Below are positions 727-2,716 of a stretch of DNA of 34,437 nt, in pieces. Below the pieces are notes generated by a model, which had not been told where the DNA came from, ran no database searches, and worked only from the letters and a program-made list of their open reading frames with translations. This DNA comes from Acidobacteriota bacterium (GTDB lineage Bacteria > Actinomycetota > Acidimicrobiia > Spongiisociales > UBA11373). How positions within the stretch are numbered: position 1 is the stretch's first letter; each line of letters begins with the position of its first letter. A program made the translations under genes and the position numbers. The stretch lies in the NCBI GenBank assembly GCA_022571885.1, contig JACZWZ010000007.1, positions 4,493 through 38,929 on the forward strand, in the 5' to 3' direction.

Positions 727-2054
727 AACGAGCCCTCGTCGCCGCCTTGATCTTGGCGCTCGGAGCTCTGGCGGCGGCCCTCCCAACCCCAGAACCAGCG
801 GCTGGCCCTCTGGCGGGGCTACTCATCGATCGGCCGGGAATCGATTCCCCGGTGGATGCCAGCATCTGGTACTGCCCGTGGGCTCAGGCGAACGCCGGAC
901 GCGACTCGTTCTTTGGTGTTGCTTCGATCGCGGCTGCCGACGCCGAGTTCACATTCCCGGTGGCGATTCCGGGAGAGCCGCCCGATCAGGCTTCGACGGG
1001 GACGCTCGGACCGGGTGCCTCGATACTGACGCTCTCCGACATCGCTCAGCGAGGCGACTCACCCGGATTCGTCGAGTTCAGTGGCGGCCCGGCTGCGGCC
1101 AGCGTGACGGTCATGGGCGAGGTGTTGACAGCCGACTCTTGTGTATCTCAGGGTCCCGACGAGTGGTTCTTTGCCGGCGGGTCGACTCTCAGCGGAGAGC
1201 GGCTGAGGCTCAGATTGTTCAATCCCTTCCCGGAGACCGCCAAGGTGACCGTCACCGGATTCAGCGAGATCGGCGTGGAGGCACTTGGCGAACTGCGATC
1301 GGTGTCGATCAATTCCAGGTCGTGGCGCGACATCGATTTCGAGGAGATGCTTCGGCAACGCCAGGCACTGGTGATCTCGGTCCGGGTAGATGAGGGCCTG
1401 GTCATTCCCGCGATGTCGTATTCCCAGGGTGACGACGAGGCTTGGTGGATCGGCTCGGGCCTTTCCAGAGAGTGGGAGTTTCCGATCGTTCGAACCGACG
1501 GTCTCGAAAACGGAGTGGTCGTGGTGGGAAATCCCAACTTGACGGAGGTAATCGTCACCGTCGATGTGTACACCTCCGAAGGCCCTGAACGGTCTGCCTT
1601 CGAGTTCGTGCTGGCGCCGGAGGCGCCGCTGCGAATCGATCTCGGGTCGGTGTCCGGGGGCGCGGTGGGGGTGCGAATTTCGGCCACGGCTCAGGTAGCG
1701 GCAGGAGTCGTGGCGAGTGGAGAAGCCGGGACCGCGGTCACCGGGGGAGCTTCGGCGCCCGCCCGGGTTTGGCTTCTTCCCGGGTTACGCTCGGTTGGGC
1801 TCAACCAGGGGACGTTGTGGCTGATGAACTCCGGATTTGAGCAGATATCTGTCACCGTCAGTGTGTTGACGGGAGCCGCTGCGGTCAACTCGCAAATCGT
1901 GGTTGAGCCGGGGACCCAGGTGGCGGTGCCGATCTCCGATCCCGATGCGCTCGGTGTTCTCGTGGAGTCGAACGACCCGTTCACGGCCGCGTGGTCGGTC
2001 GAAGGGCCTTCCGGCGGTGCTTTCAGCGCCGGGCTCGCCGTCATCGATGAGTGA
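723..2054 (+). CDS. DUF5719 family secreted protein
   Basis: I place the start at ATG 723 (MKRALVAALILALGALAAAL), which overlaps the upstream stop as ATGA and begins directly with a signal peptide; the GTG start at 711 in the ORF track only adds four residues. The mature part, about 420 residues, is rich in Val, Gly, Ser and Thr and looks like repeated beta-sandwich strands, with the WYCPW-type segment early in the mature protein that I associate with DUF5719. The function of the family is unknown. It is exported and co-encoded with the membrane protein before it and a thioredoxin-like protein after it (8-bp overlap), so a role in cell-envelope assembly is plausible but unproven. Confidence 0.72.
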   Translation: MKRALVAALILALGALAAALPTPEPAAGPLAGLLIDRPGIDSPVDASIWYCPWAQANAGRDSFFGVASIAAADAEFTFPVAIPGEPPDQASTGTLGPGASILTLSDIAQRGDSPGFVEFSGGPAAASVTVMGEVLTADSCVSQGPDEWFFAGGSTLSGERLRLRLFNPFPETAKVTVTGFSEIGVEALGELRSVSINSRSWRDIDFEEMLRQRQALVISVRVDEGLVIPAMSYSQGDDEAWWIGSGLSREWEFPIVRTDGLENGVVVVGNPNLTEVIVTVDVYTSEGPERSAFEFVLAPEAPLRIDLGSVSGGAVGVRISATAQVAAGVVASGEAGTAVTGGASAPARVWLLPGLRSVGLNQGTLWLMNSGFEQISVTVSVLTGAAAVNSQIVVEPGTQVAVPISDPDALGVLVESNDPFTAAWSVEGPSGGAFSAGLAVIDE

Positions 2055-2424
2055 GTGGGTGGCACCCGTGATTCTCACGGCTGCCGCGGTAGGTGTTGTC
2101 CTCGGAGTCGCCTATTGGGGCCACCGGCGTGAGCGACGCACCGCGATGACCTCGCAATTGCGTCTCGACGGTGTCGAGGGTGCGGTGTTGTTCTTTTCCG
2201 ATGTTGCCTGCAGGCGTTGCGATCTGGTTCGGGATCGCTTGGAGTCCATCGGTGCCGACTTTGTCGAGATCGCCTTCAATCACGAACCGGAGCTTCAGAG
2301 GGCCATCGGTGTGGTGGGCGTTCCTCTCTTGGTGATCCGCGACGACAGTGACACGATTGTGGGGCGAATGGCCGGTGTGCCGTCGGCCAGGCGGATCGGT
2401 CGAGCGCTGGCTCGGTCTCGTTGA
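2047..2424 (+). CDS. membrane-anchored thioredoxin/glutaredoxin-like protein
   Basis: The ORF track starts at 1903, but the first 48 codons there run inside the DUF5719 gene. ATG 2047 (MSEWVAPVILTAAAVG) overlaps the DUF5719 stop by 8 bp and gives a 125-residue protein. Residues 5-24 form one membrane helix, followed by a basic stretch (HRRERR) and a short thioredoxin-like domain: strand GAVLFFSD, then CRRC at the position of the redox CxxC, and later the GVVGVPLLVI segment with the cis-Pro expected after the active site. It could reduce or isomerise disulfides in the partner envelope proteins, or be a regulatory thioredoxin fold. The side of the membrane is not certain. Confidence 0.6.
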   Translation: MSEWVAPVILTAAAVGVVLGVAYWGHRRERRTAMTSQLRLDGVEGAVLFFSDVACRRCDLVRDRLESIGADFVEIAFNHEPELQRAIGVVGVPLLVIRDDSDTIVGRMAGVPSARRIGRALARSR

Positions 2425-2456: not shown

Positions 2457-2478
2457 TTAATCACATCAATGTGATTAA
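2457..2478. promoter_or_regulatory. 22-bp AT-rich inverted repeat upstream of the DUF3499 gene, probable operator
   Basis: Two perfect 10-bp arms, TTAATCACAT and ATGTGATTAA, are separated by CA. The site is much more AT-rich than its surroundings and ends 10 bp before the DUF3499 start codon. Half-site orientation (TCACA..TGTGA) is opposite to the classical Crp arrangement. A possible -10 (TAAACT, 2476-2481) overlaps its right arm and would start transcription at or next to the ATG, giving a leaderless mRNA, in agreement with the lack of a Shine-Dalgarno sequence there. I infer a repressor site; the regulator is unknown. Confidence 0.55.
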
Positions 2479-2488
2479 ACTTGCGGCC

Positions 2489-2716
2489 ATGACCGAGTTC
2501 TGTGTTCGCTGTTCTGCTCCCGCCGGCATCGTGATGTCGTTCGCATATGTCGATCGGGCGGTGTGGCTCGATGACCTGGTTGAACCCGTCGTCCCCGGAT
2601 CGGCATACGCAATGTGCGAGAAGCACGCCGGGCGGCTCACACCCCCGGTCGGCTGGACATTGGTGGATCGACGTACCGCGGCGCGCCCGCTGTTCGCATC
2701 GCTCGAAGTTGCCTAG
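2489..2716 (+). CDS. DUF3499 family protein
   Basis: The ORF track begins at 2348, but the family-like sequence begins at ATG 2489 (MTEFCVRCSAPAGIVMSFAY), giving 75 residues. Characteristic points are the N-terminal CVRCSAPA knuckle, the VDRAVWL strand, the AYAMCEKHAGRLTPPVGW block and a variable tail. The Cys residues (FCVRC and MCEKH) could form a small metal site. DUF3499 is an actinobacterial family of unknown function usually found near whiB2 and phosphomannomutase, and here manB follows about 4 kb later. The mRNA is probably leaderless, and the AT-rich inverted repeat just upstream suggests that it has its own regulation and is not only read from the DUF5719 operon. Confidence 0.75.
   Translation: MTEFCVRCSAPAGIVMSFAYVDRAVWLDDLVEPVVPGSAYAMCEKHAGRLTPPVGWTLVDRRTAARPLFASLEVA

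Follow-up and report, generated by a model that had tools for sequence, protein, structure and literature searches.

A probable McdR/ResR operator at the predicted leaderless promoter of a DUF3499 gene in Acidimicrobiia

McdR/ResR (Rv1830) is a non-classical member of the MerR family described in mycobacteria as a regulator of cell division and "antibiotic resilience". It is essential in these organisms and has been linked in the literature to the drug resilience of tuberculosis, with few targets described so far. Its site, AATnACAnnnnTGTnATT, was worked out in mycobacteria with DIP-seq, EMSA and mutated promoters, the length of the spacer being essential but not its sequence (PMC9040748), and was confirmed in a second paper (PMC10336103). 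McdR represses whiB2 in mycobacteria, repression being the only kind of direct effect for which published measurements exist, and overexpression of McdR in M. smegmatis leads to more recA, dnaE2 and imuAB mRNA. The site and reader discussed below are already known and the regulator can be named, its consensus having been published in PMC9040748. DUF3499 as an McdR target and the breadth of replication and repair targets in Acidimicrobiia are absent from the main texts of PMC9040748 and PMC10336103, as are the terms smc and Rv3258c, and a search of the open literature found neither this target nor this breadth.

A palindromic box at the predicted DUF3499 promoter

The window, a stretch of 34,437 nucleotides, contains upstream of a small gene the inverted repeat TTAATCACAT-CA-ATGTGATTAA. 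The first-pass annotation had described it as an AT-rich, operator-like repeat, perfect over 20 paired positions, in GC-rich DNA and 10 bp from the start codon of a DUF3499 gene. Each of these particulars was borne out (Table 1): all pairs match, the repeat has 23% GC against 63% for the window and ends 10 nt before the ATG, and the downstream product matches the DUF3499 family in Pfam. The core of the repeat, AATCACA-TCAA-TGTGATT, agrees with the published consensus at each of its 12 defined positions, which make up the half-sites AATnACA and TGTnATT; these are separated by exactly 4 nt, as are those of the aligned orthologous boxes of other DUF3499 promoters. A bare palindrome is not extraordinary in this window, in which perfect repeats with 10-bp arms and spacers of 0 to 10 occur 13 times (register shifts within longer palindromes counted) versus 0 to 2 times in shuffles. 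The site owes its significance to recurrence of the motif, since 100 dinucleotide-shuffled versions of the window yielded no site within 3 mismatches, and the motif was found again by genome search and is conserved across the order, at DUF3499 as well as at other genes. Recurrence and footprint together rule out a chance palindrome, and on comparative sequence grounds we regard the inverted repeat as a regulatory site.

The proposed overlap with the promoter was upheld as well, the best -10 hexamer, TAAACT, sharing its first T with the last T of the box and lying 7 nt before the ATG. The presence of TAnnnT 6 to 8 nt from the ATG in all 12 aligned promoters, with the box located at each of these predicted promoters, agrees with the leaderless mRNA claimed earlier and leads us to predict a transcription start at or next to the ATG. 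A scan for consensus promoters found no TTGACA/TATAAT pair. Read-through from the upstream ORF into DUF3499, adding McdR-independent expression, is possible. In the DUF3499 protein, C5-x2-C8 and C43-x2-H46 are invariant and are likely to form a zinc site; its single-sequence fold was poor (pLDDT 48).

Table 1 Coordinates of the features discussed. Plain positions are those of the window; positions preceded by an L number are those of other loci.
Feature	Position	Strand	Basis or remark
Perfect inverted repeat TTAATCACAT-CA-ATGTGATTAA	2457..2478	.	20/20 pairs
Probable McdR/ResR box AATCACATCAATGTGATT	2459..2476	.	12/12 vs published AATnACAnnnnTGTnATT (PMC9040748)
Predicted -10 hexamer TAAACT	2476..2481	+	TAnnnT 6-8 nt before ATG, 12/12 aligned family promoters
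DUF3499 gene, 75 aa, predicted leaderless	2489..2716	+	PF12005, E 6.3e-9
Upstream ORF, 125 aa, without Pfam family	2047..2424	+	ORF and Pfam check
McdR ortholog, MerR_1 domain	L287:1067-1582	-	G000:C9, window's genome
RHH protein	L002:1264-1488	-	G000:C112
~99-aa conserved protein, box before start	L091:687-983	-	no Pfam family
Boxes 3' of crgA	L067:1001-1018, L074:1001-1018, L092:1001-1018 and 2388-2405

Conservation and recurrence of the box

A lack of conservation upstream of DUF3499 in close relatives had been named beforehand as what would refute the reading, and the site withstood this test. The gene was found in 13 of the 14 genomes of the acidimicrobial family (G000 being the window's genome), and the box stands upstream of the gene in all 13. 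Counted on the 12 defined positions, it has no mismatch in G000, G002 and G008-G011, one in G001, G003, G004, G012 and G013, two in G005 and three in G006, that is 0 to 1 in 11 genomes and 2 to 3 in two. Among the eight genomes that share the layout of the window, mean pairwise identity was 0.96 at the 12 box positions, whereas the box spacer (0.29) and the upstream flank of 37 nt (0.28) were at the level of chance, and a fixed box with free spacer and flank is the pattern expected for a binding site under selection. The layout varies, the -10 starting on the final T of the box in these eight genomes and the box lying about 7 to 13 nt further upstream in five, with the promoter core covered by the box in both arrangements.

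The motif is also found well away from DUF3499. A search of the 2.79-Mb genome for near matches returned six sites within 2 mismatches of the 14-position pattern AATCACA-N4-TGTGATT and none, within 2 mismatches, for the reversed control pattern. These sites are at DUF3499, at a small ribbon-helix-helix (RHH) gene (G000:C112), at smc, dnaE and uvrD, and on the 3' side of crgA. In other genomes of the family the box also precedes uvrA, HU, whiB (G001, G002, G003, G006-G009 and G011), nrdJ, thyX and a protein of ~99 aa without Pfam family; in the draft genome of the window itself, which is 92% complete, no whiB with a box was seen. Other families of the order have it at smc, uvrD, whiB, HU, recA, gyrB, thyX, nrdJ, dnaE, crgA (5') and pilM. 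Genome-wide statistics are pattern searches with the reversed pattern as control; within 1 mismatch, the motif was present in 88 of 119 genomes of the order, the control being zero in every one, and in 112 of 397 genomes sampled across the phylum. Sites in other actinobacterial classes were at whiB2/cofD, crgA, gidB, a DUF3263 gene, recA and dnaE, and the mycobacterial target types whiB2 and the DUF3263 gene thus carry the box in other actinobacteria. We take the DUF3263 gene to be MSMEG_0833/Rv0430, a known mycobacterial McdR target. Some weak sites, few in number, lie before other genes, and the matches are therefore not confined to replication genes. Retention of the box before DUF3499 in relatives and its recurrence at other genes across the order uphold the operator reading of the first-pass annotation.

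Three further observations concern individual boxes. The ~99-aa protein (…RSRRAWRREV…VVAELY…) is conserved, with orthologs in G001, G007-G009, G012 and G013. In the family, the crgA box lies 3' of the gene, between convergent genes and adjoining a TCCACA...TGTGGA palindrome, and elsewhere it lies 5' of crgA. A box was also seen between genes for a DNA cytosine methyltransferase-like protein and a Vsr-like nuclease (L142-L143 region, G309:C12 and G292:C55).

Candidate readers of the box

The window's genome encodes an McdR ortholog (Table 1), the best of the eight MerR-type proteins tested; over 131 aa it is 57% identical to McdR from a Mycobacterium-like genome (so labeled from its gene content). 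Its HTH segment GITYRQLDYWART is unchanged and its gene neighborhood, FHA - Rv1828-like MerR - DUF151 - McdR - gcv, is that of mycobacteria. We consider it likely, with good confidence, that the site at 2457-2478 is the operator of this genome's own McdR/ResR, which would occlude the DUF3499 promoter. Points that speak against this reading are the differing position of the box between genomes, its location around the TSS and not in the spacer at mycobacterial whiB2, and the failure to find a whiB with a box in the window's genome. A degenerate box with 3 mismatches, AATTACnnnCGTGTAAGC, precedes mcdR in G000 and G002, which represent two genera (L287 and L291), making autoregulation possible.

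The same protein could instead activate DUF3499 in the style of classical MerR regulators, bound in the spacer between -35 and -10. The box does fall in the spacer region, at about -30 to -13, and the rise of recA, dnaE2 and imuAB mRNA upon McdR overexpression would be compatible with activation. However, no -35 hexamer is recognisable at 19-20 bp at the DUF3499 promoter, the distance from box to -10 is not fixed but differs by several bases from one genome to the next, a variation that would sit badly with a twisting mechanism, and repression is the only direct effect with published measurements, so that we regard activation as unlikely.

An omega-like RHH protein was at first favored as the reader because of its own perfect boxes: the protein encoded by G000:C112 would be autoregulated through an identical box and act on DUF3499. 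Perfect boxes lie 13-16 bp ahead of the RHH ATG in the first genomes examined, all nine genomes with a MYEL-type N-terminus have a perfect or near-perfect one, and the half-site AATCACA resembles what we take to be the heptad (WATCACW) of the RHH omega repressor. Distribution and contact residues led us to demote it. RHH orthologs were detected in this family only, while the motif occurs across the order and in other classes as well; the predicted beta-strand contact residues vary within the family (K-T/A-Q, R-D-R, R-V-L) but the motif is constant; and McdR has already been demonstrated to read the motif. Omega-type repressors use contiguous heptads, and here the distribution of the family RHH protein does not follow that of the motif. 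Judging from these sequence patterns, the RHH protein is probably itself a target, and there is only a slim chance that it is the reader. It has 64-76 aa and an N-terminal [D/E]WGxPxP, and was detected in 14/14 family genomes; orthologs were not clearly found outside the family, where weak matches were generic antitoxin-like proteins.

Still more improbable is a LexA (SOS) box or the site of another palindrome-binding repressor. The presence of uvrA, uvrD, recA and dnaE among the box-bearing genes resembles an SOS set, and the LexA regulon shares the use of a palindrome with a 4-nt spacer and some repair genes, but its half-site differs. The lexA promoters of 12 family genomes have the canonical CGAACN4GTTCG and not this motif, which rules LexA out as the reader, and the site at 2457-2478 does not contain CGAACN4GTTCG. 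The lexA promoters examined (L116-L127) have three spaced boxes of this type. A CRP site was rejected, its half-sites being in the opposite order. A pair of DnaA boxes was likewise rejected: TTAATCACA resembles TTATNCACA, but the conserved box has an A where DnaA presumably needs a T.

Proposed regulation and comparison with mycobacteria

In the occlusion that we favor, a McdR dimer would bind AATCACA-N4-TGTGATT at about -30 to -13 of the leaderless promoter and, with the -10 beginning at the last base of the box, would keep RNA polymerase off DUF3499. Its relief would induce DUF3499 together with the family RHH gene, smc, dnaE and uvrD and, in relatives, also uvrA, HU, whiB, nrdJ, thyX, recA and gyrB, and DUF3499 might be released with the cell cycle or DNA stress. 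A repressor role is proposed here because of the position of the box and the repression of whiB2 measured in mycobacteria. The sequences show the box, its conservation, its co-occurrence with replication and repair genes and the McdR ortholog; that McdR binds the box, that it represses and does not activate, that the mRNA is leaderless and what signal induces the gene are inferences.

On this view, DUF3499 would belong to a regulon connected with DNA replication, DNA repair and the handling of the chromosome, one that appears to reach far beyond DUF3499 and to be larger than the main texts of the mycobacterial papers describe. More tentatively, and at slightly short of an even chance, McdR may be an actinobacterial cell-cycle regulator of ancestral origin whose direct targets in Acidimicrobiia form a replication-repair-segregation regulon (dnaE, gyrB, nrdJ, thyX, recA, uvrA, uvrD, smc, HU and whiB) with the phylum-conserved DUF3499 as a core member. 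If so, DUF3499 would be a small zinc-binding protein for DNA replication or chromosome handling. DUF3499 thereby gains a named candidate regulator and a likely functional context, and the exact McdR site directly before many replication and repair genes across an uncultured order makes direct control testable.

The locus shares with the mycobacterial whiB2 operator the consensus AATnACAnnnnTGTnATT, the 4-nt spacer and the promoter location, and with the mycobacterial system as a whole a regulator ortholog, a near-identical HTH and a conserved gene neighborhood. At whiB2 the box lies around the TSS, whereas here it lies over the -10 and spacer of a predicted leaderless promoter and the target is DUF3499. 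Unlike in the mycobacterial system, the box-bearing genes around DUF3499 comprise smc, dnaE, uvrA, uvrD, recA, gyrB, nrdJ, thyX and HU.
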